DNA of 64,000 bases from Ephemerocybe angulata (taxonomy: Eukaryota; Basidiomycota; Agaricomycetes; Agaricales; Psathyrellaceae): positions 62,001-126,000 of the forward strand of contig JAACJK010000122.1 in NCBI GenBank assembly GCA_013368325.1. The letters are read 5' to 3'. Shown piece by piece: positions 13,700 to 64,000 of the stretch. The notes beneath the pieces are model-generated. The model saw nothing but the letters and a program-made list of their open reading frames with translations. It was not told where the DNA came from and did not search any database. Every line of letters begins with the position of its first letter. Positions within the stretch are counted from its first letter, which is position 1. A program made the position numbers and the translations under genes.

Positions 13700-14012
13700 A
13701 CGTATCGAGGGTACCCTGTGGGTGCATACCCTATGTATCCCGAGGGTGCATACCCTGTGCCTAGGGTACATACCCTATGTATCTCTGCATACCCTGTGCC
13801 TAGGGTACATACCCTATGTATCTCGAGGGTGCATACCCTGTGCCTAAGGTACATACCTTGTACATACCCTTTGTATCTGTGTGTAGGGTACATACCTTGC
13901 ACATACCCATTGTATCGTGCATACCCTGTGCCGAGGGTACATACCTTTTACATACCCTTTGTATCTGTGATGAGGGTATGTACCTTCGTGCTTCGAGAGT
14001 ATATATACCCCC
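13700..14012. repeat. Minisatellite of GGGTACATACCC units
   Basis: Direct repeats of a roughly 45-base unit contain GGGTACATACCC or GGGTGCATACCC, each an imperfect palindrome, joined by CTATGTATCTC-like and CTGTGCCTA-like linkers. Units lose regularity toward the right end. The array is 5' of the Helitron coding region and ends about 100 bases before its first ATG, so it may lie inside the element or just outside it. Confidence 0.85.
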
Positions 14013-45739: not shown

Positions 45740-46379
45740 GACATTTGACGCATGAAAAAAGAGATCGGTTTATGGTCAGAAACAGTCAACGTGTCGTTCA
45801 TCTCCCTTGGACATCCCGCATCGTGCGGTTGGTAGCTTTCCTCGGGCTCGCAACAACTTGAAACGTGCCCTATCGGCGAGTGTGTGGCATACCATGAGAC
45901 ACTGTGACCGATGAAATATCGTCCGCAGCCATGAATCGGGGTTCTACAGTATCACTAGAATCACCTCCAATGATGCATCACATTCGATAACCGATGGGCT
46001 TCTGGTGACGCATCAAACCGTGAATTATCATGGTTTGGCCCGTGATGCATCACGAACTCCCTGCGGGGCGCGGCTGGTTGGCTGGGGCGAGGGTGTGATG
46101 CATCACGAGCTGGCTGGGGCGAGGGTGGGACAGGGGCTGGGACGTCAGGGGCTGGGACCTCTGGCGCGGTCCCAGGGGTAGATGGGGTGATGGTCCACAT
46201 CACCTGGCTGCACACCGCGCCGCCGCCGCCATCATGGTCTCTCCTGATGCGCCCAGCGTAGGATTTCGACATTTTCTGGGGGAAATTTGCACTTTCCCAG
46301 CAAAACCGTCATCATCGATGGGTCGAATACTGACCTCCAACTACCGACTGGTGATGCATCACAGGGTCTACTGACTACA

Positions 46380-47180
46380 GCGTGGGTTGCTAAATAGGTA
46401 GAAAATTCAGCGCTGCCTGGCGCTGGGTGATGCATCACGCTCTTTTGCAGTGCATGCCCAGCGACAGCAAATTGTAAATAAATAGATCGCCGACTGGCGC
46501 CTGGTGATGTATCACGGCGCCAGCCCGCTCTACCCAATATAATACTAATTTGACCGACCGTCCGCGCATGGTGATGCATCATGGGGGCCGCTAAATAGGT
46601 AGAAAATTCAGCGCTGCCTGGCGCTGGGTGATGCATCACGCTCTTTTGCAGTGCATACCCAGCGACAGCAAATTATCAATAATGAGATCGCCGACTGGCG
46701 CCTGGTGATGTATCACGGCGCCAACCCGCTCTACCCAATATAATACTAATTTGACCGACCGTCCGCGCATGGTGATGCATCATGGGGGCCGCTAAATAGG
46801 TAGAAAATTCAGCGCTGCCTGGCGCTGGGAGATGCATCACGCTCTTTTGCAGTGCATACCCAGCGACAGCAAATTATCAATAATGAGATCGCCGACTGGC
46901 GCCTGGTGATGTATCACGGCGCCAGCCCGCTCTACCCAATATAATACTAATTTGACCGACCGTCCGCGCATGGTGATGCATCATGGGGGCCGCTAAATAG
47001 GTAGAAAATTCAGCGCTGCCTGGCGCGTGGTGATGCATCACACTCTTTCGCAGTGCCTGCCCAGCTACAGCAAATTATCAATACTTAAATCGCTGACTGG
47101 CGGCTGGTGATGTATCACGGCGCCAGCCCACTGTACCCAATATAACACTAATTTAAATTTGACCGACCGTTCCCGCATGG
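46380..47180. repeat. 201 bp higher-order tandem repeat, four units
   Basis: Within the left array a 201 bp unit repeats about four times. The start word GGGGGCCGCTAAATAGG occurs at 46583, 46784 and 46985, exactly 201 apart, with a variant near 46382. Each unit holds three palindromes in the order GTGATGCATCAC, GTGATGTATCAC, GTGATGCATCAT. The outer units are slightly diverged and the middle two almost identical, suggesting recent amplification or gene conversion. Confidence 0.95.
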
Positions 47181-48269
47181 TGATGCATCATGCTTCTGCG
47201 GAGTGCTTAGCCATGCACACAAAAATAATCAATAAATTTACCACCAACTGGCGCCAGGTGAAGCATCACCACGTCTCCTCACTATACGACTATATCAGGA
47301 AAATAACCTACCTTTGGCATGGCGTGATGCATAATGCGCTATGCCAATTACCGTGCTCCCCACCATAGGAATATACCAATAAATTGACCTACCTTTGGCG
47401 CGTCCTGATATCACGCACTATGCCACTGGTCCGCCCACCGTACCAAACAATCAATAAATTGAGCATCTATTAGCGCTAGGTAATGGATCACTGTGCCTCC
47501 CCATTGTAGAAATGCATCAATAACTTCACCTACCTTTGGCGCGTGGTGATGCAATACGACGGGCCACTGCTCTACCCCTCGTGCCAAAATTATCTATAAA
47601 TGGAGCGCCTATTGGCGCTGGGTGATGCATCACCGCACTTCACTACCATACCGAAGATACTAATGAAATGGTCGCCCGCTCAAGCGTCGTGATGCATCAC
47701 ACGCCGAGCCATAGCTCAATCCACCACCCCTGACTACTCAACAAATAGAGCGCCTAGTAACTGGCGCCTGGTGATGCATCACTGCGCCTTCCCAGTCGAC
47801 TTATTATCTTAGTAATTCGGCCTACCATTGGCACGACATGATGCATCACCCTCAATACCACTGGTAATGTTAACAAATATATCAGAACGATTCCTATGGG
47901 CCCGTGATTGGTGAGTAAATTGAGCACCAGCCGGCGCCTGGTGATGCATCACAATACATCCTAGCCATACCGGAGTATAACCAGGCGATCAAGACCTTTA
48001 CCGTTGACTGGCACCTGGTTATAGATCACTGCGCCTAAGTAGCACAGTAGCTCATCGACCTATCTTCGCTCAGAAATATGTCGGTATATTGCCTGGAATG
48101 TTGACTTGCCCGTGGTGATCCTTCACCATGCCTATCTAACCCATCTGGCCTGTTTGTGAGGTATTTAATTCTTCAGCTAGCCTTAGATACATAGGGCTGT
48201 CTCTGAGGTATCTCGCTCTGCTACTGGGTAGGGCACTTAACCCTCGTAAAAAAGAGACAACAAAAAGTC

Positions 48270-48400
48270 AAACAATCGATCTCGCTATGGGCACGCCGCG
48301 CGTGGCCCATTCTTCAATTCAAACCTTCACTTCCTCATGGAATTGAACGCAGGAACTGAAGAATGAGCCCTGCGGGCGTGCCGACATGGGAGCAATCGTC
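48270..48400. repeat. Short inverted repeat inside the left array region
   Basis: GGCACGCCGCG...CATTCTTCA (from about 48289) and its imperfect inverted copy TGAAGAATGAGCCCTGCGGGC (to about 48384) enclose about 30 bases. It interrupts the palindrome spacing and could be a tiny foldback element. Confidence 0.6.
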
Positions 48401-48885
48401 CGCTGAGCCATGGGGGCTTGTGAAACACAGCTAGCTGGGCACGATGTAGATAGATCTTGGTATCAATGCAAAATTGGCGCTGATTTGGCGCCGGTTGCTA
48501 TATAATTGGGTCTGGACCTCGAGAGCCGAATACCGGTACCTTGTGGAGCAGCAACCATGCTGCAACATGCACACAATCACAAGGAAATAGTGTTTGCACC
48601 CTGCGATGCAACGCCCGGCGGTTTGCGCCCTGTGATGCATCAGTGTCCAGCATCAGCCGCCGGTTTACGTCCTGTGATGCATCACCATAATAGATAGCGA
48701 AGATTCACGGCCCATTGGTTGATGAATATTAAGCGCTAGTTACCGTACAATCATGCATCACACATCAAACTGGAGAGTATGGATTACACGCAAGTTTGCC
48801 CAACTACACAGCAATTTCACGCACATTCAATGACAAAGAAAATTTGATTCAAGTGACTACAGCGAAGACCATAAGATATACCACT

Positions 48886-51619
48886 TCACACCTTCTTCGC
48901 CTTTGACCCAGAAAGCGACGCTGCTACATCCTCAGGCAGCGTCTCGAGATCAACTTCACCACAATCGTTACCCTCCCCGTCAACGGCGACATAGGCATAG
49001 CGGGTGCCGCCTACTTTGACGCGCGAGCCACTGACCTTCGCTCGCTTCTTGGGCACCTGCTGGGATGGAGCAGGACTCGCCGCGCGCTTCTGGCGACTAC
49101 GAAGCGAGCGTGAAGTGGTGCCGACATCATTTACGCTGGGCTGTGCAGCCTGGTTCTCCTTCTGGCGAACACGAAGCGTGCGCGATGCGGCGCCATCTGC
49201 AGCGGGAGTGCTGGTTGGGGTGGCGGCGCCCGTCGGCTCCGCTGCGGTCACGCTTGAACCCTCCTTCGCAACACCTTTGCCTTTACCCGCCTTCGTAGCA
49301 CCTTTGCCTTTACCCTTCCTACCCTTGGCCTGACCTCCCACCTTGGCTCCCGTGGGCGCCTTCCTACAGATCATTTTGACACATTAGATGATACAAGAAT
49401 GTAAATAGAGTATGAATACGTACTTTGCAGCAGCAGCTGGGGCGGGAAAGTTGGTCTGAAGGTTTGCGAACAGATCCTCGCGGTCGTCAGCCGGAATTCC
49501 ATCTTGCGTAAGAGGGAGATTCAAATCTAAATCAGCAAGTCCGTTCGTGGGAAAGTCGGGCATGCGACCGCTATCCCAGGAGCCTTCCGCATCCCGAACG
49601 CTCTCCTGAGGGGCCGAGGCGGCCGAGTTTGGGAGTTCCTCGACCGTGATCCCAGCGCGTTGGAGTCCAAGCTCCATGGGCTCGGTTGGACCACCTTCTG
49701 GAAGGGGTTTACGCGTTCCAGGGTACACGGCTGGACCAGTGGGTGCTGCAGTGTGAGGGGAGGGTGTTTCAGAGGGAAGCGGAGGTTGGAATTGGGGGAC
49801 ATAAACGTTGCCAGGTGCAGGGAATGGGACGTAGACGGGGCGTTCAACAGTGCTAGGGCTCGCGCCTAGAGTGCCCCGAGCTACAGGGGCTGCTGACGTT
49901 GTCGAAGCGACCGCCAAGGATGGATTATGGACGCTGGGAGGCGAGGCCTCAGATCTCGATACCATTGTCGGAGTTTCGGAGGTCGATACCAGAGTAGTCG
50001 AGGGAGTCGAGGCTGTAGGAGACGAGGTGCCATGATTCAAGTCATCAAGCATCAAGACGTTGGAAGCTGGGGTGCCGGGGGTTGGAACGTTCGCCGTCGA
50101 GAGTACCGTCGAGTTAGATGTCAAGACGTTAGAAGGTGAGGGGCTGGGGGTCGGAACATTCGGAGTAGAGACTACAGTCGAGGCGTTTGCGGCGTGAGTC
50201 TCGATGGTGGCAGAGTCCAGAGCTCCCTCGTGGTCCGCGGCTTCAACATCCCCTTCTTCATCTTCCTTTTCCCGGAGCCCAAGTCGTTCAAGCTGTTCCT
50301 GATGTTTGGTAACGGCATCCGCCCATTGATCATCGCCTAGATAAAGCAATGTAGGGATCAGCGCCAAAGCTGGGAGATTGGGTTTAGAGATGAGAACTCA
50401 CTGAATACATTCTCTCGCGCCCATTCCTTGAGTGGGCGAGTAATGGCTCTCCTAACTTCAGGATGCGCATCGACATAGAGCTTATCCTGGCCGTCCTTGC
50501 CAAAAGCGACACTGTTTGCGAAACGTTTCATCATCATCAGAACCAAACGTGCGCACATAGTGTCAATATACTCACAACCTGCTTATCAGCTTCTTTGGGT
50601 CGCTCGGATCGGGGGCGACGCCAATGGTAATAGTCGTCATGGCGCATTGAGCCCACATCAAGCGACCGTTCTCGATCATGAACGCCTCAACACGATCAAG
50701 AGCCCTGCAAATCATGTGAGTAAGCATTCTGTGCTCGAAAGATAATGATCACTTACTCCCGCCGCAGACTGGCCTTACGCGCCAAACCAGCCCCAGATCG
50801 CCTCATATCCGCCTCGTCCTTGAGCCTCTTTTTCTCTTTCTCGACCGCTTCGTCCACCGCCTTCAGATCTTCTGCCGAGGCTCCATCGAATTCGCGCTGA
50901 ATGACTTCAGCACGAACCTTCAAGTTCCAGCCTTTCTTCTTTGCCTCAGCGAGAGGGCGAGAAGTGTCAGCGCCTCCATTGACTTCGTTAGCATTCATCT
51001 CCGCATCATCCTTCTCTCCGTCTGCGTCCTCGTCCTCGTCATCATCATACTCCGGTAATTCCTCCCCCTTCGCCTTTCTGGACTTGTACTCCGACATGGC
51101 CTGAGCAATCAGCGGGTCTAACCGAACCTGGTTTATCTTGTAGAAGATTTCTCCGCGCTTACTGATCCGGCGCTGCGACGATACGAAGGCTTTCGCAGCG
51201 CGGGACACTGCCTGCTGGGATCCTCGCGCTCCAAGCACGACACCTACCCCAGTTCCTCTGTACTCCGTTTTGTAGAGGTACCGGAAGAGGGTTTTAATTT
51301 GCTATAAATCGTTGGTAAGCATCCATTTAATTGAATCTCAAGTCGTATAGCTTACCTTGCATCGATTCTTCATTTTCTTCTTGTAGAGCTCTCTCTCCTC
51401 CTCGTTCAACCTGTACCCGTCGTCGAGAACGTGAGCGTCCAGCTTGCCCTTCTGGACGAGCTCTTGCAGCATTGGGAATTTGGCGAAAAATATCGCCTCG
51501 TAAGTCGGCCACCACATCCTGATGGATTTCTTCCCCTCTTGGACAACGTCATGGTACGTCGGCAAGTACTTGTTGAATAGCTCGCGCTGAGGGTCGGAGG
51601 TCCAGGGTTTAGTCGGCAT
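48886..51619 (-). CDS. KDZ-associated cargo protein, 812 aa, six exons
   Basis: Exons from right to left: 51619-51356, 51301-50757, 50704-50576, 50511-50402, 50336-49424 and 49363-48886. All introns have GT..AG ends and the frame is continuous for 812 residues. The N-terminus (PWTSDPQRELFNKYLPTYHD, then a WWPTYEAIFFAKFPMLQELV segment) matches a large Agaricomycete orphan family that starts with a WT..Q..(F/Y)L motif. A KN-rich basic stretch and a segment for REIFYKIN-like helices follow, then an acidic run (EYDDDEDEDADGEKDD), a conserved ALDRVEAFMIENGRLMWAQC region, a long Ser/Thr/Pro-rich linker, and a Lys/Gly/Arg-rich tail (GRKGKGKGATKAGKGKG). The basic tail suggests nucleic-acid or nuclear association. 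Function is unknown. Its 3' end lies 130 bases from the left array and its frame is intact, so it may be active cargo. Confidence 0.75.
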
Positions 51620-52072
51620 GGAGTAGGCGGTGATAGAGGCGAAGGTAATCGGTGGTAGGTGGTAGGATGGACAGTAAGAGGGATATGTGGGGCGTGCGGG
51701 CGAGTGATTGGGAGTGTGCGAAGCAAGCTGGTCTTGAGCGAATGTTAATATATTTGTCAGGAAATGGAGTATAATTTTATAAGGAAAAAAGAGAATGCAT
51801 GATGGACGTGATTGGGGCTAATTCGCAAACAGGGAATTTCACAAATGAGAATAATTCACGGAAGATCTTATGATCATCCATCTCCACCCTTATCTGCTGA
51901 GTCACACTGCAATACAACGATTTATTTGAACGATTAGAGCCCAAGGTGCAAATACAGTTTCAACTTGAGCTCGAAATTCCTTCATTCAACCCCAAATCGA
52001 CTGTCACACCATGCCCCCTCATATTGCGCCGCGAAAATTGACGCTCGCCGATGCGGCTCTATTTTACCAAAC

Positions 52073-52368
52073 TCAATCGCTACGAGATCGATCTACCGCA
52101 CATGTGGTCAGTAAGTATATCGAGACCACCATGTGCAATAGCGCATGTAGTCGGTATTTCACGAGCACTTACCTTTACCATCGTGTGAGTCCAACGACGA
52201 CTCATCTTTGGTCGGGGAGCTCAATCGCTACGAGATTGATCTACCGCACATGTGGTCAGTAAGTATGTCGAAACCACCATGTGCAACAGCGCATGTGGTC
52301 TGTATGTTACGAGCGCTTACCTTTACCATCACGTGAGTCCACCGACAACTCCCCTTTCATCGGGAACT
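52073..52368. repeat. Tandem duplication, two 148 bp units
   Basis: 52073-52220 and 52221-52368 are about 85 percent alike, for example both carrying TCAATCGCTACGAGAT and GATCTACCGCACATGTGGTC. Each unit carries, on the reverse strand, an exon-end-like GTAAGT or GTAAGC donor. The duplication overlaps the 3' end of the fragment at 52307-52513, and probably arose by unequal exchange after that gene decayed. Confidence 0.85.
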
Positions 52369-52513
52369 GAGCAGAGAATTTTGCTTCATAGTCAAGCCTC
52401 CACTGTGTGACAGTCTTCTTACTCATCCTGATGGCATGGCGATAATTCTCCATGTTATCGTTGAGGTAGGTCTTCTGGGAAAGTGAGGTCCAGGTGTTGG
52501 GCGACATGGACAT
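52307..52513 (-). pseudogene. Truncated paralogue of the cargo family
   Basis: Reading leftward from 52513, the product starts MSMSPNTWTSLSQKTYLNDN and continues with QWRLDYEAKFSAQFPM, the same W(T/S)..Q..YL and FPxxxEL pattern as the N-terminus of the gene at 48886-51619. A donor (GTAAGC) follows, but beyond it there is only the 148 bp tandem duplication. I see no later exon, so this is a first-exon remnant or an early-truncated gene. Confidence 0.55.
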
Positions 52514-52837
52514 GGAAGGCTAACGAAACTCGTGTGTGTGTGTCGGTTTTATCTACAAGGTATTACATATCTGCAAAGGTCCGGATGCTAGGCATTGCCA
52601 ACTGCGCTCGACCGTCAATTGCGTTCCACTGCACCCCATCATGCCCTGCCTTGGCGCAACCGGATCCATCCTCAAAACAGCCTGGGAACCAAGTCGGGCG
52701 GTGGCCGAGGCCCATTGACACAGCACGCCTTGTGCTGGATCTGCCACTCGATTCTATTGAGCCAGACCAGCGCCATGTGGACTCTCTATGCATGGAATTA
52801 GTGATTATCAACTGACCACAGAAACATTGGAGCTTAC

Positions 52838-53134
52838 GATCAGACGAGCCCTTTCAGCTGCCGCGACAAGCACGCGCTGCTCATCGGACAGTTCAAACTT
52901 GCGGCGCGCCGCGCCAGGGGGAAGGTGACCTTTCTTGATAAGCTCGGGAATTATCGGCCATCGAAGAGACCAGTATCCTTCCAGAGGCTCGATGAGGGTG
53001 TCGATGCTGGCGGCCGGACCCTTCATTTGGAGACGCCGGGAATATTCCACCCTAATCTCCCTCATGAACTGCCGCTGACGGGATGTCGCCCAGTGCCAGG
53101 AGTGCTGCGACCATATATCTCTTGTGTAGCTCAT
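52838..53134 (-). CDS. First exon of a diverged cargo-family member
   Basis: Ninety-nine codons from 53134 with a trailing GTAAGC donor at 52837. The exon contains DIWSQHSWHWATSRQRQFMR, a YWSLRWPIIPELIKKGHLPP segment and ELSDEQRVLVAAAERARLI, the family pattern of an aromatic/Gln start, a W..(F/I)P..(E/Q)L segment and a charged helix. A possible continuation downstream (52563-52811) is open but has no recognisable match to the family, so the gene may be truncated. It is transcribed with the neighbours toward the left array. Confidence 0.45.
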
Positions 53135-53240
53135 CTTCGGAGGGAAGTAGTGGGTAGGAGGTGGGTTAATCGAGGCAATTCGGCCTATTCACCCCTTTAA
53201 ATACTCAGACAATATCACATCGACAAGTATGTATCTACAT

Positions 53241-54164
53241 CTAATCGGATAAGTACTCGGCATCACCCTCTTCCTCTGAGCCGTCTGCATCCAGTGTATC
53301 ATTCAACGTGCTGTGGTCTCCAGGTCCATCTGCATCTGGATCCGTCGTCTTGGCTTCTCTCGCTGACCCATGCGAGCTCCCATCTTCGCACTCCAACCCA
53401 TGTGAGCTCCCGTCGCTCGAGGACCCATGTGAACTCCCATCGCCCGAAGACCCATCCGATCTCCCATCGCCCGAGGATCCGTCCGAGCTCCCATCGTTTG
53501 AGGACTCATTGCTCGAGTCCGAGGCTCCATCGTCCCAATACCCGAGCTCCTCCAAGAACGGTATGCTCATGTCGAAGTCATCCCTGCATAAAGAGGGTTA
53601 GTTCCTAGTTGTAGAGTAAAAATAATGGTGTACACACATGTTGCTGGTTGGCGTGAGCTTGGGACGTTTGGTTGGAGGCTCGCGTACGGTACTGGGAGCG
53701 CCCACACGGGGCACTTCATGAAACGCGAGCTGATGTCTTCCGGACTCATCCTTGACAAGGACGAGTACCTGCTCTAGCCCTGCGTCTTCTCTGGCCTGCC
53801 TCGCTTTTTCGGCCCTGTCAATCAAGCCTCAGTATCACGCAATAGCAATGGATTTGAAGGAATAGCATACTCTTTGTATTCCTCCCAAGAACGCTTGGCT
53901 TCATCGATGCGGGCTTGCCGCTTGGTTCGCTTCACCTGACTTCAAGGTACTATGAGTTAATTGAATGATTGAAGAACGGGAGACTTACTTTTCAGGAGCC
54001 AATGAGGACTCAGCGCTGCTGGCTTGCGATCTCGGCTGCGACATCTTCGAGGACTCAGCGCTGCTGGCTTGTGATCTCTTCGAGGACCCAACACTGGCTT
54101 GCGATCTTGGCTGCGACATCTTCAAGGACCCAGCACGGCTAGCTTGCGATCTCGGCTGCGACAT
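53241..54164 (-). CDS. Cargo gene with N-terminal SQPRSQAS repeats, 254 aa
   Basis: Four exons from right to left: 54164-53989, 53939-53871, 53814-53638 and 53583-53241, joined by canonical introns in one 254-residue frame. The N-terminus is a degenerate tandem repeat of MSQPRSQAS (four copies, with MSQPRSQASRAGS and KRSQASSAESS variants). A basic, helical stretch (KRTKRQARIDEAKRSWEEYK) and an EKARQAREDA segment follow. Then comes DESGRHQLAFHEVPRVGAP, which looks more conserved, and a C-terminus of DGSS and GSSHG repeats ending in an acidic tail (DADGSEEEGDAEYLSD). The composition suggests a disordered nuclear protein. Function is unknown. Its ATG at 54164 is the first in frame; a nearby earlier ATG is out of frame. 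It lies nearest the central divergent region on the left-transcribed side. Confidence 0.6.
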
Positions 54165-55138
54165 CGAGGTAACAGAAAAGATGGAAGTCCACTCGCAGAC
54201 TCTCCCACCGGCATTTTGATGATTTAAAGGCTAACTCCGGATGTCAAGCTGAATTGATCCGGTGACAAGGGTTGACGACATGAGCGCCTATGACGATGAC
54301 TTGGGCGCTCACCATTCTCAATGCGCATACTCTGTGTTTCAATACAAATTAACTATTACAGAGGTCTAAATTAGTCCTTATACTACTCCTGACGTTCTCT
54401 GTGCAACGGTGCTATGTACTTTGCGCATTTGAATGCGTGCATGTATGACATGACCCTGACCTCACTACTCTCTGGCCTCGAGTTCAGCATTCACCCCCTC
54501 ATTACTCATAGATTAACGAAAGTAAGGCTACAAATCTAATTCCACGAAATCTAAGCCAGTTTTTACTTCCCTCTACATACATACTTAGCTACTGTACCAC
54601 CGTTAACACGTCCCGCGACTCGCGTTCAAGCTAATCCAAAAGTCAAGTATCATGCGAGGTGCACCTGTACCTTGGTTGTGATTGACTTCTACATAAGGCT
54701 CACTACTCAATATGAAACCCAATGAGCAACTGATAGAGCCTGTCCGAACCACCAGGCCGCTCATTCTGAGGGAAGACAGTGGTTTGAAGATGCTGGCTTC
54801 GTGAGTCTGATGATGGGATGACACCCTCATTACCTCGAATACAGTGCCTCAAATAGAGCAAATGTGCCTACTCCTTGTGTATCATATAATGCAGCCGGTA
54901 TTTTCCTACCATTTACATACTTTCTTATGGCTGATATGAAGAGCAATTGTGTCGTTCTAGCAGCCTTGTTTGATGGGACAGTAAACGTGAGACGAAACTT
55001 GAAAGTCAGACACTGAAACTGAGATTTATATAAATCTCGACTTTAAGCAGGCGCGATCAAACCCTCCTTTCTCTCTTTTCGCTACAACTGGGGTTCAACA
55101 ACGCTTCATTGCACCTCAGTTCTAGTTCTCTGCGCGTG
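54165..55138. promoter_or_regulatory. Central divergent promoter region of the KDZ element
   Basis: All genes left of this interval run leftward and all right of it run rightward. An AT-rich stretch with ATTTATATAAATC lies about 115 bases before the ATG at 55139, and pyrimidine-rich sequence follows. No gene or palindrome is seen here. Confidence 0.5.
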
Positions 55139-55996
55139 ATGGGTCGACCTGCACTGTACAAAACGGAGGATGAAAAAAAGCAAGCTGCAGCGGCTCGTAG
55201 CCAAAGGTATTATGACCGGTAAGAACCCGCCCACTCTGCCTCAATCACATTCGCTTACATCGCCATAGCTTTCGGGAGGATATCTGTAGGGCCAAGAGGG
55301 AGAAGTACAATGCCAGAAAACCTGAGGCTACAGCAAAACCTAGAAAATCGAAGACCGAGGAGCAACGCAAGCTCTACAACCGTATGAAGAGTAATCTTAG
55401 TTATGCGCGGTACGCATTATAAACCTCAATTCCAAAGTCGTTTTTATTGATATAGCACGTATAAGCAGTAGGAAATCTCAGCCAAAGAGCGAGAATAGAA
55501 CGCATGAGAAAGCGAAAGCAAAGAATAGCTCTAAGTACGTCAGTTAGATTGAACTTTGGCGGGGCACCCTACTGACTTGATGTGCGATCGAAGCATGAGC
55601 GTACCGCAAGTGACACCGAAGATAGCTCTGTGGGAGGAGCATACAGCGTTCCTTCGCGCCGCATACGAAGACATGATTGAAAATGTGTCACTGAGGACGT
55701 ACCTCGACCTTATTTCAGCTCGATACATCGAGAACAGCTCGCTTGAAGCCCTTGGATCATCCTTGCCGCGTTTGAGACGCCTTCACACTGCGGTCTTTGA
55801 CCATGAGGAAGATATTGTAAAGGAAGCTGGGGCCAGTGCTAATCTTGTTGACCTTGAAGATCTTTCGCAGAGTATCAAGTGTGCGGTCACAATGATCGAG
55901 AACCTGGAGGATATGGTCAGGACCCGGGGTTGGTTCATATTTATGGACGACTATACTCGCGGGAGTCTCCTATTCCAGACGTCTGAGCTTTGTTAA
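55139..55996 (+). CDS. Cargo protein of the GRPxLY family, 229 aa, four exons
   Basis: Exons 55139-55218, 55269-55409, 55469-55534 and 55594-55996 join in one frame of 229 residues. The start MGRPALYKTEDEKKQAAAAR is characteristic of a small Agaricomycete family with a GRPxLY motif followed by basic helical repeats, often found near KDZ elements (from memory). The next part is Lys/Arg-rich (REDICRAKREKYNARK). The last exon encodes a longer helical C-terminus, with QVTPKIALWEEHTAFLRAAY and a DLEDLSQSIKCAVTMIENLE segment, ending at a TAA. The basic N-terminus suggests nucleic-acid binding. Function is unknown. It is the first rightward gene beyond the central divergent region, and its intact frame suggests it is under selection or recently inserted. 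Confidence 0.6.
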
Positions 55997-56227
55997 TAAA
56001 TGGTGTATATTTAGTGCTACGGTGACCGGATTCCCTTCAATATGGATTATGGGGCTGGGATGAGGTGTCGATGACTACGTCGATGGGACTTGCACATGGT
56101 CATTTGTCGCCATCTTCACAGCATGGGAGAACATTATCACAGGGGCTGATAAGTTATAACTACATCATTTGCGTTCTGCCTACGGGTTTTTTCCCTTACC
56201 CCTCCACACATTTCACAACGTCCCACA

Positions 56228-57767
56228 ATGACTTCCCCACCCATTCGACGCTCTAAACGAACGTCAGCAAAAGCCCTCGCACCACGAGTCGAACCGACTA
56301 GAATCCAGCAGGCTCGCAAGGCAGCGGTCGCTGCTTCCGTACTCAACGTGATCAACGCCGACGCCGACATGCATGCACTCCCCAACGCCAATATGCCACT
56401 CCCCGACGTCAGCACGCCTGCGCTCCCCATTGCTGATGTCGTCAACGCCCCCACCAGAGGTCACGAGTCCGCACTTCCCATCGCCGTGGTTAATCTTCCG
56501 ATGATCATGCTCTCCGTCCCCGACGTGTCTGTGCTCCCCGATGCCGACACTCCTGCGCTCGCCGATGCCAACACTCCTGCGCTCGCCGATGCCAACACTC
56601 CTGCGCTCCCCGATGCCAACAATCCTGCGCTCCCCATCGAAGGAGGTTCAGCGCTCCCCGACATGAGTTCTGCGGCCCCTGAAGCCGATGTTACCGCACT
56701 CGACGCTGCCGTTGGAGAGCCTGCTCACCCCGTCGGTCCCTCCACTGAGGATGACAGCTCCCTCGTTGCCGTCAGTGAGCCCTCTGGCCCCGTCAACCCC
56801 TTGATCGAGGATGGCGATGATGGCATCGCCATCGCTCTCGACTCCAGTGCGGGCATTTTTGCGGTGGAGGAGCGGATCGTGCCTCACATCTTCCGTGCCA
56901 ATAGAGCTCGAGTCCGTGATGCGACCGAGGCTTCTCAGACTGCCGTCCCCGTTGGTGGTGATCGCATCCCTGCTGCGGCCACCGAGGCAGCTCAGACTGC
57001 CGTCCCCGCTGCTGATCGCATCCCTGCTGCTGCCGCCGCCGAAGCTCAGACTGCCGTCCCCGCTGGTGCAGCTCGTCTCCCTGCTGTCACGGTTACGTTG
57101 AAGGATGGGGGGTCGATCAGCTTTAGCGCTTTCGAGGACTTCATGAGTTACTTGTCGTTGTAAGGTCCCATTCATTCTAACAGTACAAATAACTGACAAT
57201 ATCATGGTAGCCAAAAAAAGGGGGAAACACAAGCGCCTGGTGGCTCTCCTACACAGACGCCCGAGCCCACTCTACCGAAATCTAAAGGGTATGTTACTTT
57301 CTCTATCGCCTGAGCTATTACTAATTATGCAGTAGTAAAGGAAAGCGCGTCGCGCGTCCTTCATCGTGAGTTGTTCCTTCATCTCGACTGGAGGTCGATT
57401 TTCTGATTAGCATACGCCTAGCGTTCCACATCACGTTGAAGCTTCGACGGGGACCGATAGGAATGCAGAATCATCGTCTGAAACAATTGCTCAAAGCGGG
57501 TAAGTGATATTTCTGAGCTCTTCTGAAGTCTGATATGGAATGATGGATATTTAAAGGTCATCCTCATCAACTCTGGGGAAGCGTCGCCAACCTCCTTCGC
57601 ATGACGATGGGGATTGTGGTATTCAGATCATTGGGCACAAGCCCTCTAGGAAGTACCAGGCAGTTCGCTGCGGTTCCGATAACGAGGTAATATTCGTTAG
57701 CGACGTCATTCCTGCGCCGAAAGTTGGTTCATCTTCCAAGCTTGGAAGCTCGTCCTCTCGCAAGTAG
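56228..57767 (+). CDS. Low-complexity cargo protein with ALPDANTP repeats, 443 aa
   Basis: Five exons (56228-57159, 57211-57288, 57333-57365, 57422-57499, 57557-57767) form one 443-residue frame. The N-terminus is basic (IRRSKRTSAKALAP). A long Pro/Ala/Asp region contains tandem PDANTPAL/ADANTPAL units, then a second repeat built on EAAQTAVPAADRIPAAA. After VTLKDGGSISFSAFEDFMSY the later exons are Ser/Lys-rich, with EVIFVSDVIPAPK near the end. Nothing resembles a known enzyme. The many repeats suggest a disordered linker-type protein. It may be a binding partner of the transposase, but that is a guess from position between the GRPxLY gene and the transposase. Confidence 0.55.
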
Positions 57768-58036
57768 ATAGATGCTCGTCTTCGAATGTGATATGGATTT
57801 TCTGTCATATGGTGCTGAAACGTGTGGTGCTCCACCCGTTGAATCGACCCATGAGGACATGAATTTGAATTATTGGCTTTATTTCCGGAGATTCTTCTCT
57901 CATATGGACTCATGATGTAAAATGAGCAGGGATCTCAGTCATATGGGCTCTTGATTATTCGGCAGCAATACGCCATCTGACAGAATATGTCGATCAACAT
58001 TCTTTCAGGTACCTCAACTGATTTGACACACGGCCT

Positions 58037-58440
58037 ACGGTCGGTGGGAAGTCCAAGGATGAATTTCACGCGCGCGCATCTGGATCAAAGGTGGGATCAC
58101 CCCCGCACCGACCCCCCAGCGCGACTTTCATTGACGTCATAAAAATGAAAGTATTCACCTCGATCAGCCGGAAGGAAGCGTCTGCACCAAGAGCACCAGT
58201 ATAGGTTAAATATGTTAGGTAAATACAACAACGGCCTATGCGAGAAGGGTCCTCCTCAACCGAAATTACCTCAATACATATACCAGGTATTCTCAGTGCC
58301 GCAGGATCACATAGAATAATAGCCATAGAATAGCCACAACAGGTATATACACAGGTAGCAACAACCACCTTGCAACCATCCGGCCATCAGATCTTGTTGC
58401 GCGCGCGTGAAATTCATCCTTGGACTTCCCGCCGACCGTA
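58037..58440. mobile_element. 400 bp MITE with 40 bp TIRs and TA duplication
   Basis: 58039-58438 is bounded by near-perfect inverted repeats of about 40 bases beginning CGGTCGGYGGGAAGTCCAAG and ending in GCGCGCGCA, with one visible mismatch at position 8. Each end is flanked directly by TA. No coding sequence is present. A TA target and this structure fit a Tc1/mariner-type miniature element. It sits in the promoter side of the KDZ transposase gene, whose ATG is 188 bases away. Confidence 0.9.
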
Positions 58441-58627
58441 CACGGCCCCATGGTACCCAGCTCCATCGCTGATTGATTCAATACACAGCCTAGGCGTGTG
58501 TAGGAGATTGGTGGGAGATGTACGGGGGCCCGATGGACTCTGTATCAGGAATTTTAGATAATGAAAACTGACCATCTTATCGAGGACTGCTCACTTCCCC
58601 CCACATTTCCTGCCTTGCTTTGTTCTT

Positions 58628-61600
58628 ATGCCCCGCGCTGACAGGAAGCGGAAGCGTGACTACGGATCATTTGCCGACGACGATTCGAGCGACGCAGAAA
58701 GCCAAGCGCCTGCTGGTGATGGCCGCAGCACAGCTACATCGGCTGCTCCATCAACGCGAACCGACTTTGACTCTCTTGTCGAGGACTCTGTCGACGTCGA
58801 CTTCCTCCCTCCTCTCGATAGTGAAGGCGACAATGTACAGCTTCCTCCAGCCCCACCTCTGGCGCCCTACGAGAATACCTGGACCGACGACATAGACGCT
58901 AGCGCGGAAGAGGATGAAGAGGACGAAGCAAGGGACAACGATGGTAAAGAAAAGGATGGAACACCTCCAGACTCCGTGCGCATGCTATGATCCTTCCTTT
59001 ATATCAAGATATACTCACTTTCTTTACATAAAGGCTCACCAGGAGTGGATCAAGCACTATCGAGAGGCTTATCTACGAGAGATGATCAGGTTGGAAGGGC
59101 GTGGGGGCCGCAGCTCGCAGGCAGTCTGCTCGGGTTGTCGGTGCGCCTCTGTAGCCATCTATCGGTGCACAACCTGCATTGGAGCAGAGATGCTATGCAA
59201 GACGTGCGTCGTTTCCGCCCACCAACAGAACCCGCTTCATTTTATCGAGGTAGGCGAAGTTCCAGCCTTGGCCATACGCAACAAACTGACACTCTCCCAA
59301 TAGGTCTGGGCCGACACTCACTTCGAACGCATCACCCTCAAAACCCTCGGACTTCACATCCAACTTGGCCATGCCCCAGGATATACCTGTGCGAACCCGG
59401 ATCCTCCACGCCGAAATGATTTTGTCATCGTCGATACGAATGGGATCCACGAAGTCAACCTCTCGTTCTGTCGATGTGATGGGATGCAGCCGCAGTTTGT
59501 CCAGCTCTTACGGTACGGGCTGTTCCCTGGGACAGGGTTGGAGCCGCGAACAGCATCTACCTTCCGAGCGCTGAAGCTCTTTCAAATTCTGTCGTTCGAG
59601 TCGAAGGGATCGCACCAGGAATTCTACCGAGCCCTCGAACGCCTCACCGGTAATGTGCTTCCCAAGTCGTCCAGGGTGAGTCGATGTCTCCATCATCTCA
59701 TGCACTGACAGCTCAACGTGACCGACAGGACCGCTACCACGAGTTTATAGGCATGGTCAGCCAATGGCGACACTTGAAGATGTTGAAGAGAGCTGGACGG
59801 GGTCACGATACTGGTGGTGTTGCGGGGACGGGTCTGGGATCATGCGCTCTGCGCTGCCCATCTTGCCCACAGCCAGGCATCAACCTTCCGAATGGCTGGG
59901 CGTCCGCTAGACCCGAGATCCGGTCTGTCGTTTACAGCATTACCTTTATATCTGTCCTTACCTTTATATCTGTTCTGAACTTCGTTTAGTTGGTTGTATC
60001 GACTATTTGTGGCCCTCGACGGAAACTTTAAGCTCAGACGACGATTAGTTTCCTCAAATGAGAAAGATCCAGGGTACAACGAAGGTTGGGCGTACTTCGT
60101 CGAGGAGATTAGCTTCAAGGATCACTTGTCATCAAAGTGGCACCTGCCGCAGGATGTAAGTTCGATGTTCGCTGCCTGTATTCACTAGTCTAAACCGTGC
60201 TTCAGCGTAGTACATGTGTCGCTCACGAGGCCGTCGACAAACCTGATCGCCAAGCCAGAGGCCTTGCGGCCTCTGGGGTTGGGGCAGCGGTTTGTACTCG
60301 TCATGAGTTCAGGCTTCCTAACAGCGTCGGCGACTTGCAGCATGGGGAACGGTATGTTTATTCGCTTTTTTCACGTGCTATACAAACCAACGAGGGACTT
60401 GTGTTCCATGTAAATAGGTATATCAACATCGATTACATCGCGTTTTCAGCAATTCATTGGTTCAAGGTGCTCGAACTTGTCATCTCGTATGATATTGGGT
60501 GCCAGTGGCACAAGAAGCTTCTTGAACGACTGAAGAAGCTCCCCAAGCACCTCTGGCCAACGTTTCTGAGGGCGCTAATCGTGCTAATCCCAAAGTTTCA
60601 CCTACCGGCGCATGTCGAGTCCTGCAATCGAACGTACTCCTTTAACCTCACAAAGGGCGTTGGTCGGACGGATGGTGAGGCTCCTGAACGCGGATGGTCT
60701 CGAATGAATGCAATTGCGAAAAGTACAGCGGAGATGGGTCCAGGCATGCGCCGCGATACTCTGGATGACCATATGGGGGATGAGAACTGGGGGAAGACTA
60801 AGAAATGCGGTGCGTGAAGGATCTGGTTGCATACGTCTGTTCTACGGCTGATCCTTGCCATAGCGGATACGTTTGTCACGAAAATGGAAAGAGCAGTCGA
60901 AGGAAAGGCTAAGTCTGAGCGGGATCACGCCGAATATGTGGCTTCCCTTCCCGCCAACTTCATCTCAACGTGGACGCAGCAGGTGGAGAAGTGGGAAGCA
61001 GACCCAGCAAAGAACCGAAACCCGTATGAAGCGGAGACGAAGGGTGAGACTTACTTGCTTTTTTGTATCATGATTTCTGATAGGTCTACCGTTCAGGTGT
61101 TAGCGAGCAGGCCGTGCGATTGAAGCTTGCGCAGGAGGCCGAGGCAGCTGACATTGCAGATGGAGAGAAGACGGGCGACTCCAGTTATCTGGGAGTTGTC
61201 CAACCTTCGCTGTTTATTTCGGCTGGGGTCCAGTTGGAAGAAGATCAGTACGTCTCCTGTATTATGCTCACAAGCCACTTACTAAATCACAGGGCCAGGT
61301 ATAAGCTTCGTATCGCCGCATCGCAGCTTGGAAACCACCCGACGAAGAAACAGCTGACAAATCTAGCTGAACGATCAAATATCCTTCGTCGCCGCATTGC
61401 TGCGTGGACTGATGTCCAGAAATTATACATTCCTGAAGCTGAGTCAATTCGTCTTCGTCAAGACTCGGCTTCTGCAGCAGTTGACGGGAAGCCTTCGGTC
61501 GAGGCGTACGAAATCCCACTTCTCCTGCCATCCTCCTTACCTGTGACTTCCAAGTGCAGGTCCGACCTGATCAGGTACGAGGCTCTGCTCAGGGAGGGCC

Positions 61601-62422
61601 AGGCGTACGACGCCTTGGAGGAACTTCGCAGGTACCTCCGGAGTCGTTCCTATCACTACAAGCGCAAGGATAAGAACTCGAGAGGCTCGCAGGCGTCGGT
61701 TTCAGCGAATACCCGATCCAACACAGCACTTAAACGTGCTCAGCAGGGCGTCGACGGTGCCGCGATCAGGTACACACGGGCGTACAAGGCCTTGATCGTG
61801 CTTCGGGGGATTGATGGTGATGAGAATGCGCCTGACGAGCAATGGCGATCCGACTTGCAGAAGTTGAAGCCCAGTGATATTCGCGGCCTGTCGGAGGGTC
61901 TCTTCGGCGACTCAGAAGGAACACGAGCGATTTCGTGGATATGGAAGTCGCGTTCATCGAGCACGACGTCCAAATCGGAGGAGGATATAGAAGGGGATTC
62001 GCAGTTACAAGACGGTATGTTGACTTAGTCATTTAATCTGACACAAGCTCATATATTATCCCAAAGCCCTTCGCATCGAGTTTTTAAAATCTCGGGCACG
62101 CGCTAACCGCTGGGCAGAAGAAGTGTTACTGCTTGAGGAGGAGATGAGGCGTACAGTGGTGTTCTTTAAATACAAGGCTGCCTGGTGGTATTCGAGGCAG
62201 ACGAGCTCGATTGGTGGCTCGACGCCTGACTACATAGAGGGGTTCTCCGCATACGCGATGTCACAAGTCAAAGTTTATCAAGCGCTTCAGCTCGAATGCG
62301 AGAGGCGATGGGAAGAGGGACGGGCAAGGGCTTGGGTAAAAACAGTGCAGAAGGGTGGAAGGAAGAAGAAGGTCTCACAGGAAGACGAGTTAGATATGGA
62401 TGAACTATTGGACGATCTCTAA
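58628..62422 (+). CDS. KDZ transposase, intact, 1080 aa
   Basis: KDZ transposases carry out DNA transposition of Kyakuja-Dileera-Zisupton elements. Eleven exons (58628-58975, 59034-59249, 59304-59675, 59729-59922, 59990-60155, 60206-60351, 60418-60809, 60864-61043, 61097-61247, 61293-62014, 62067-62422) sum to 3,243 bases in one frame. After an acidic N-terminus comes the CxC2 cysteine cluster (CSGCRCASVAIYRCTTC, then CRCDGMQPQ and CPSCPQPGINLPNGW). The core follows with LDGNFKLRRRLVSS, EGWAYFVEE, GLAASGVGAAVCTRHEF, GDLQHGERYINIDY, SYDIGCQWHKK, PKFHLPAHVESC and GVGRTDGEAPERGW, all hallmark motifs of the family. The C-terminal helical region ends in DELDMDELLDD. No stop, frameshift or missing motif is seen, so this copy is probably competent. 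It is read toward the right array, which starts within 100 bases of its stop. Confidence 0.9.
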
Positions 62423-62459
62423 TGAAATACTTTACTTCACGTATATTGTGCGTCGTTGC

Positions 62460-64000
62460 TTGGCGATTAATGATGCGTAATCGCAACTCACACACGAGGT
62501 GGGGAACAATATCATGCATCATTATACATCAACCAGCGATGATAGAAGAATTTCGGGAATCCCAAGTTCAGTGTGATGTATCACTGGGCGCCAACTATCG
62601 ACGCGCCTGGCATGCAACGCGCCGATGCGGGTTCGAGTTTGTGATCCATCACCAAGTGCCAATTGGCGGCACAGGTCCCCGTCACGAAACGCCGGTTCCC
62701 ACCTGAGGACGTCACTTGGATGCAACCAGGCCTCTAACTAGAAGGAAAAGATATTTGCATATTCACCTCTAGTTAGAGGTGTTTTTTGCAACCAAGTGAC
62801 GTACTCGACTGCGGTTCCAGTTATTGATCACCCGGTTAGGCCAAGCTATGACTTAGAGGGAGCATGATGTATCACTGGGCCAGTTTACTGATACATTCAA
62901 TAAGGTGAGGAGGCGCGGTGATGCATCACCAGGCCCCAGTTATCAATAAAACCATGGTGATGCATCACCGAGCGCCAGTCGGCGCTGAAGACTTAGTGGC
63001 ATCGAGCGTGATGCATCTATGCATCACCTGGCGCCTATTTGGCGGTGGGTACAGCCATGGCGCGTGGTGATGCATCACCCTGCCTCAAGAAATTGGCGCG
63101 TCGTGATGCATCACCTGGCGTCTATTTCCCGCCGGTGGGTAGAGCCGTGCCATGGCGGGTGATGTATCACGACGCGCCAATATATTGAGGCTGATTTATC
63201 CGGTGTAGTGGGAGCGCGTCATCAAACGCTGGTGGAATGAGGGGCGCACGATTTTTGTAAATAATAGCATTTGGTTATGCCGGGGACAGCAGTGGCATGG
63301 ATCGTGATGCATCACGACGCGCCAAAGGAGGCGCGGTGCATGATCCTTTGGCGCGCCGTGATGCATCACCTAGCGCCAGTAGGTGCCAGATGTATTGGTG
63401 ATTTCCCGGCGGGGGGTAGAGCCGTGGAATAGCGCGTGATGCATCACGACGCGTCAGAGGTAGGCCAATTTAATGAGGCGCCGTGATGCATCACCTAGCG
63501 CCAGTAGCCGCCGGATTTATTGGTAATTTCCCAGATCCGTGGCATGGCGCGTGATGCATCACGACGCGCCAGAGGTATGCCAATTTAATGAGGAGCCGTG
63601 ATGCATCACCTAGCGCCAATGGGCGCTCATTTTATGGGTGGCTATGGGCGGTGGGTAGAGCCATGGCATGGCGCGTGATGCATCACGGCGCGCCAATGGC
63701 TGTTAAAGTTACTGATATATTTGTATAGTGGAGAGGGTACGGTGATGCATCACCTAGCGCCAATGGGCGCTCGATTTATTGATCATTTGTGAAGGCATGG
63801 TTATTCACTGGAGGAGGCGTGATGCATCACCATGCGCAAACAATAGGTCAAATAGTATTATATTGGGTATAGTGGGCTGGCGCCGTGATACATCACCAGG
63901 CGCCAGTCAGGGATCTATTTATTAATGCTTTATTTCGTAGGGGTATGCGCTGCGAAAGAGCGTGATGCATCACCATGCGCTAACCAGCGGCTAATTTTCA
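62460..64000. repeat. Right palindrome array (continues past the window)
   Basis: About twenty palindromic sites, of which I count about fourteen perfect GTGATGCATCAC (for example 62918, 62957, 63067, 63103, 63303 and 63960), spaced about 45-80 bases apart. At about 63008 a fused double site reads GTGATGCATCTATGCATCAC. Sites are nested between arms such as GCGCGTGATGCATCACGACGCG and CCGTGATGCATCACCTAGCG. From about 63830 the sequence becomes the reverse complement of the 201 bp unit in the left array. The array is not complete in the window. Confidence 0.95.
62709..62802. repeat. 94 bp foldback with nested hairpin
   Basis: ACGTCACTTGG-TGCAA at 62709 recurs as its inverted complement ending at 62802. 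Each arm carries CCTCTAACTAGA, and inside the right arm lies a perfect CACCTCTA-GT-TAGAGGTG hairpin (62764-62781). It breaks the palindrome spacing at the inner edge of the right array. It may be a tiny non-autonomous element. A clear target duplication is not visible. Confidence 0.7.

Follow-up and report, generated by a model that had tools for sequence, protein, structure and literature searches.

An 18,570-bp KDZ transposon of Kyakuja type in Ephemerocybe angulata with inverted arrays of a short palindrome at its ends

Kyakuja elements of Agaricomycotina are described, in the passages of Kojima 2025 that deal with their structure (PMC12730594), as KDZ transposons with 7-bp target duplications and CA..TG ends but no terminal inverted repeats (TIRs), the last statement applying to the Kyakuja families first characterised there. 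The same passages give 8-bp duplications for Zisupton and a Dileera family, place the Zisupton transposase lineage well apart from Kyakuja, and report that mushroom Kyakuja carry TET/JBP genes with a presumed role against silencing by methylation (PMC12730594). For Cryptococcus neoformans, the relevant parts of a second account (PMC12810828) present KDZ1, KDZ2, and KDZ3 as active elements of approximately 9 to 11 kb with TIRs of 139 to 241 bp and target duplications of 8 bp for KDZ1 and otherwise 4 to 8 bp, and name CxC1. Here we describe a KDZ element of Ephemerocybe angulata whose transposase gene lies between two inverted arrays of a short palindrome, GTGATGCATCAC. It was detected in a stretch of 64,000 nucleotides (the window), corresponding to C124:62001-126000 in an assembly of 58.7 Mb, so that window position equals contig position minus 62000.

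The feature is almost certainly one KDZ element, as a first-pass annotation of the window had proposed, and this is supported by a right terminus, an inverted repeat, and a perfect target duplication. The element spans C124:107953-126522 (window 45953-64522), and the single unit, estimated earlier at about 19 kb, measures 18,570 bp. Its right end is just beyond the window: the array end and terminus that had been sought at approximately 66 kb do exist, with the terminus at position 64,522. The 7-mer ACAGTAT is duplicated exactly at both flanks, directly before the CA at 45953 and directly after the TG ending at 64522; a matching duplication had been anticipated at both ends, although of 8 bp rather than 7. 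The duplication length and the 5'-CA..TG-3' termini are both those of Kyakuja. When 600 x 600 bp around the ends were searched, ACAGTAT was the sole 7-mer pair with a CA directly after its left copy and a TG directly before its right copy, and 7-mer pairs drawn at random on the C124 contig match at 7e-5. An 8-bp duplication of the Zisupton or Dileera kind was ruled out, the flanking 8-mers TACAGTAT and ACAGTATA having just the 7-mer in common. The coordinates of the ends, of the repeats within them, and of the transposase gene are as follows.

45946..45952, no strand: left copy of the target site duplication, ACAGTAT (right copy at 64523-64529, beyond the window)
45953..45970, plus strand: left 18-nt tip, 5'-CACTAGAATCACCTCCAA, without an inverted copy at the right tip
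45970..48761, plus strand: left palindrome array, 30 GTGATGCATCAC sites with <=2 mismatches, many with the outer-flank word TGGCGC
45971..46374, plus strand: left terminal inverted repeat, 404 bp, 96% identical to 64101-64504 inverted
46389..47192, plus strand: tandem 201-bp unit, 4.0 copies, 94%, inside the left array
58628..62422, plus strand: KDZ transposase gene, open 9-exon model of 1,117 aa with CxC2 and KDZ domains
62573..64000, minus strand: in-window part of the right palindrome array, inverted relative to the left, 25 sites with <=2 mismatches over its full length

At the right end, homology to a relative on C114 halts at the identical base, contig position 126522. The outermost palindrome was rejected as the terminus, since the C114 homology and the duplication both set the end 18 nt further outward, and the distance from tip to outermost palindrome is 18 nt at both ends. 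Neither 18-nt tip is an inverted copy of the other; the 404-bp inverted repeat starts 18 nt inside them, and its two copies are 4% divergent. The earlier idea that palindrome arrays replace TIRs at the ends was thus half right, as the arrays are present but so are the TIRs. Judged from its sequence, the feature is a complete KDZ DNA transposon, of Kyakuja type by its duplication and termini, that was inserted with an ACAGTAT duplication.

Sites matching GTGATGCATCAC with <=1 mismatch number 42 in the window, compared with 0.24 expected from 100 shuffles, and all 42 are confined to 45970-48685 or 62573-63973; the right array continues on the contig up to window position 64505. Among the 25 longest inverted pairs listed, those between the arrays are of 33-82 nt at 71-93%. 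In the left array, 12 sites have the word TGGCGC exclusively on their outer side and 2 exclusively on the opposite side (both sides at 6, neither at 10; n=30), and the corresponding counts for the right array are 11 and 2 (both 8, neither 4; n=25). The arrays noticed in the first pass are therefore confirmed by the site excess, and their inverted orientation by the inverted pairs, the 96% identity of the 404-bp TIRs, and the outer-side bias of TGGCGC. The 12-bp core carries 1.66 bits per position, a value inflated by the manner of site selection, and the eight neighbours on each side carry 0.39 (48 of 55 sites, the seven of the 201-bp unit having been dropped). Palindrome spacings have a best period of 10.1 (R 0.48, n=38), and those of the C114 relative a period of 10 (R 0.35, n=24); helical phasing is suggestive only, as the units have common ancestry.

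The transposase gene matches the Pfam families KDZ (E=4e-44, 151.4 bits against a cut-off of 26.6) and CxC2 (E=7e-37, 126.4 bits against a cut-off of 27) on the plus strand, which places it in the KDZ superfamily and, together with the open 1,117-aa model, upholds the intact transposase of the first-pass annotation. The C114 relative is the one related copy that a search of the genome yielded, and it is broken, with a stop codon and gaps that disturb the frame. Between the two copies the ratio of nonsynonymous to synonymous substitution rates (dN/dS), computed over 1,108 codons, is 0.113 (dS 0.92), which indicates that the transposase gene is under purifying selection. The first exon is 55% identical to that of C114 and aligns poorly, and the other exons are 79-91% identical; seven of the eight introns are at 48-58% identity and one at 87%. 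Just upstream of the gene there is a 51-nt inverted repeat (58036-58086 and 58390-58440), 92% complementary, with its arms 303 nt apart.

Across the 58.7 Mb, the exact 12-mer occurs 62 times and its reversed control not at all, and 27 of these sites belong to the window element; the 10-mer core TGATGCATCA occurs 256 times, compared with 30 for its control. Fifty of the 62 exact sites were listed, 24 in the window element and 26 elsewhere, with nine more sites elsewhere outside the listing. Among the 26, 24 have a listed KDZ match no more than 15 kb away (150 of 175 candidates were scored in the KDZ search), and two, at C115:16.7 kb, have no listed KDZ match within that distance. Short repeats in arrays in a fungal genome could be ordinary satellite or centromere DNA that flanks a KDZ gene by chance, but this reading is scarcely credible and was ruled out by the small number of exact sites, the share of them in the element, the proximity of 24 of the 26 others listed to KDZ matches, and the coincidence of the boundaries with an exact target duplication. 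The first-pass annotation had itself named satellite DNA, and palindrome arrays without any KDZ gene, as threats to its proposal: the former falls away for a palindrome that is scarce in the genome and concentrated around KDZ loci, and the latter mostly does, with the two C115 sites left over.

C117 and C16a have clusters of sites resembling TGATGCATCA at either end, and C106 and C114 have one at the single end visible in each; C209 has a cluster at its right end and a weak one at its left. In the parts compared, C117 and C124 have one 93-bp stretch in common, and the first 10 kb of C16 (330001-340000) has no stretch in common with C124. A tandem array of approximately 70 bp (by eye) containing GCATGATGCATGGAGG is found at C115:532500-534000, near another KDZ gene; it resembles the repeat of the window element and proved to be a different one. 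Within the window, at 13720-13986 and beyond the element, there is another short array, on the near-palindrome GGGTACATACCC.

Both ends and an exact 7-bp duplication were found for five of the seven KDZ elements tried in this genome, the window element included; C209 and C114 gave no accepted end pair. The other four, all with CA..TG tips, are C117 (17,636 bp, AGCAGGG), C16a (17,309 bp, GTATCTT), C16b (17,509 bp, CCAGTTC), and C11 (17,491 bp, CGTGGAA), so that the five lengths range from 17.3 to 18.6 kb. The ends of C16b and C11 were set first by a genome search with the C16a ends, and their flanks were read afterwards. The KDZ-side end of the C16a family has 14 matching places, including the query, of which 13 include the tip base; the query was cut at the tip, and matches beginning at the tip base thus demonstrate conservation of the tip and not the end of homology. 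Beyond the common tip, the flanks differ among C117, C190, C139, and C11, and homology therefore ends at the tip. Equal match scores with different flanks at C117:2535548, C190:449893, and C139:368538 point to separate, perhaps recent, insertions, and the common flank of C11:481 and C114:743007 means that these two are not independent, one being a duplication or haplotype copy. Long TIRs were rejected as a general feature, because a pairwise comparison of the C117 ends gave only a 28-bp 79% match (E 0.23). Opposite element tips are also paired 45-48 kb apart at C207:175453-223202 and C117:2418745-2463665, which suggests nested or much larger elements.

These lengths bear on another possibility, that the ends of the window element come from two separate insertions later joined, in which case the intervening cargo would never have transposed as one piece. 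The 4% difference between the TIRs and the failure to find a second full copy of the family would fit such a history. The matching 7-bp duplications, the symmetric 18-nt tips, and the similar lengths of the five elements with both ends found make it very improbable.

The palindromes are most likely end-recognition sites of the transposase. We propose that the transposase, or a protein encoded beside its gene, would bind GTGATGCATCAC, that the inverted site arrays would hold and pair the two ends, and that cleavage would occur at the CA..TG tips, 18 nt beyond the outermost palindrome, followed by cut-and-paste insertion with a 7-bp stagger. Dense arrays would permit the recognition of ends with weak TIRs or none. 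The palindromes exceed the spacers in conservation, are common to families with little else that aligns in the parts compared, and reach to 18 nt from the cut, which favours recognition sites over slippage or host regulation. Taken as a whole, the statement that this is a Kyakuja-type KDZ transposon whose palindrome arrays serve end recognition by the transposase or a partner is moderately probable.

Several observations weigh on the other side. Neither the empty insertion site that the first-pass annotation had called for nor a second intact copy of the window element was found in this assembly. C209 offered several 7-mer pairs at its ends, none convincing, a second end of C114 was not found up to 55 kb, and in C117 three 7-mer pairs fit the CA/TG rule, the one picked being that with tips matching C16a. 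Two KDZ loci taken regardless of the palindrome, C115:535 kb and C124:34 kb, have no TGATGCATCA array, and arrays are thus not universal; C117, C16, C106, and C114 were selected for holding the palindrome, and the frequency of arrays is not derivable from them. At the C114 sites the TGGCGC flank is mostly absent (upstream only at 4, on both sides at 1, on neither at 23 of 28), and directionality therefore holds for the window element only. The 87% intron and the 55% first exon indicate that the transposase gene model may be wrong in places. Part of the left array is a 201-bp tandem amplification, so that slippage alone can yield the number of sites, and the conservation of the palindromes relative to C114, 83.5% at palindrome positions of the right array (192/230) compared with 56.4% at other positions (976/1732), is a figure to which the aligner and the selection of sites from the window element contribute.

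In another account the element is real and its arrays are by-products that play no part in transposition, slippage or unequal exchange having tandemly duplicated a fragment near each end. Transposon ends often show tandem amplification nearby, the 201-bp unit is present in 4.0 copies at 94%, and two KDZ loci do without arrays. We nonetheless consider this account unlikely: the two arrays are mutually inverted, clusters of the same core recur, in differing sequence surroundings, at either end of C117 and C16a and on the right of C209, and the palindromes are better conserved than the spacers. Rather unlikely, too, is a role as sites for a host factor (a transcription, replication, or silencing protein), kept for regulating the element and not for transposase binding. 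A perfect 12-bp palindrome is a typical site of a dimeric host factor, and the arrays start just past the outward-running genes; however, the sites reach within 18 nt of the cleavage point, they are downstream and not upstream of genes, and just 2 of the 26 listed exact sites outside the element lack a listed KDZ match within 15 kb.

To a broader proposal we give an even chance: in large Kyakuja-type KDZ elements of this fungus, the ends would be defined by inverted arrays of a single palindrome, instead of or besides TIRs, and this site would have changed hardly at all between diverged families as the remaining end sequence diverged. Such arrays would account for the recognition of Kyakuja ends that are described as TIR-less (PMC12730594). 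Exact ends, five duplications, and one common motif of 10-12 bp make end recognition directly testable.

The remaining genes of the element, like the transposase gene, are predictions from simple splice models. All models run leftward from 54.2 kb and rightward from 55.1 kb, which agrees with the gene order given in the first-pass annotation.

48886..51619, minus strand: leftward gene, 6-exon model of ~810 aa, no Pfam domain, C209 homologue 51% over residues 1-271
52310..54164, minus strand: further leftward open frames, no Pfam domain, gene structure uncertain
54231..55138, no strand: central intergenic region separating the divergent gene sets, from the gene models
55139..55996, plus strand: small rightward gene, ~229 aa, no Pfam domain, homologues on C209, C13, C202, and C112
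56228..57163, plus strand: rightward open frame, 311 aa, internal 24- and 54-bp repeats, no Pfam domain, coding uncertain

With the coding strand scanned in three frames, no Pfam family was found on the leftward side, and on the rightward side none apart from CxC2, CxC1, and KDZ; the spliced models of the leftward and small rightward genes gave no known Pfam domain, and a PDB sequence comparison of the cargo proteins gave nothing convincing. The repetitive open frame at 56228-57163 may be noncoding. On C209, C13, C202, and C112 the small gene has homologues 13-23 kb upstream of KDZ matches, the distance in the window being ~4.4 kb. C209 has homologues of both the leftward and the small rightward genes, which diverge there as they do in the window and are followed downstream by a KDZ match, a recurrence that argues for the element's own genes rather than recently captured cargo. 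The outward genes, predicted here as in the first pass, are thus better seen as at least partly accessory genes of the element itself than as cargo. A 148-bp tandem duplication is present in the leftward gene region (52072-52351), near several similar-looking N-terminal peptide segments. The small-gene homologues also include a high-copy set at C142:1853, C38:6750, C197:3305, and >20 more places, with nearly equal scores and many of them within ~10 kb of contig starts; C38 and C142 have 3.1 kb in common at 99%, and C38:1-8000 has no Pfam domain. This set is probably another repeat where contigs break.

In its KDZ transposase, 7-bp duplication, and 5'-CA..TG-3' termini, the window element resembles Kyakuja as presented in the cited passages, and TET/JBP genes stand beside KDZ genes in the same genome (PMC12730594). 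It differs in having 404-bp TIRs 18 nt inside its tips, where Kojima 2025 reports none, a discrepancy that counts against the assignment, and in its palindrome array, of which those passages make no mention (PMC12730594). No Tet_JBP match that would place the element in the TET-bearing Kyakuja subset was among those listed on C124. Of the 25 TET/JBP matches above the cut-off in the whole genome, 20 have a listed KDZ match no more than 11 kb away, and for 17 the distance is 3.8-4.7 kb, a proximity in line with the passages of Kojima 2025 on these genes (PMC12730594). KDZ1-3 of Cryptococcus neoformans are likewise KDZ elements with TIRs, but they are shorter, have other duplication lengths, and are linked with CxC1 rather than CxC2, and the parts of that account concerned with their structure mention no palindrome array (PMC12810828). 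We found no palindrome arrays of this kind for KDZ transposons in the literature, nor KDZ subterminal repeats, in a search that covered mostly open-access papers. Zisupton combines a KDZ-group transposase with TIRs, as does the window element. Its duplication, according to the same passages on Kyakuja and its relatives, is of 8 bp instead of 7 (PMC12730594).

Among systems comparable only in how they might work, Ac/CACTA elements have repeated or palindromic subterminal transposase sites. The transposases of Ac/CACTA, piggyBat, and the P element are unrelated to KDZ, and their sites are fewer or shorter than the ~25-30 per end seen here. PiggyBat and the P element are reported to have binding sites inside their ends (PMC11707139, PMC7776569), and this comparison also concerns manner of working only. 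The window element is of a known kind, KDZ of Kyakuja type; what is unusual is its ends, each with about two dozen copies of one short palindrome.

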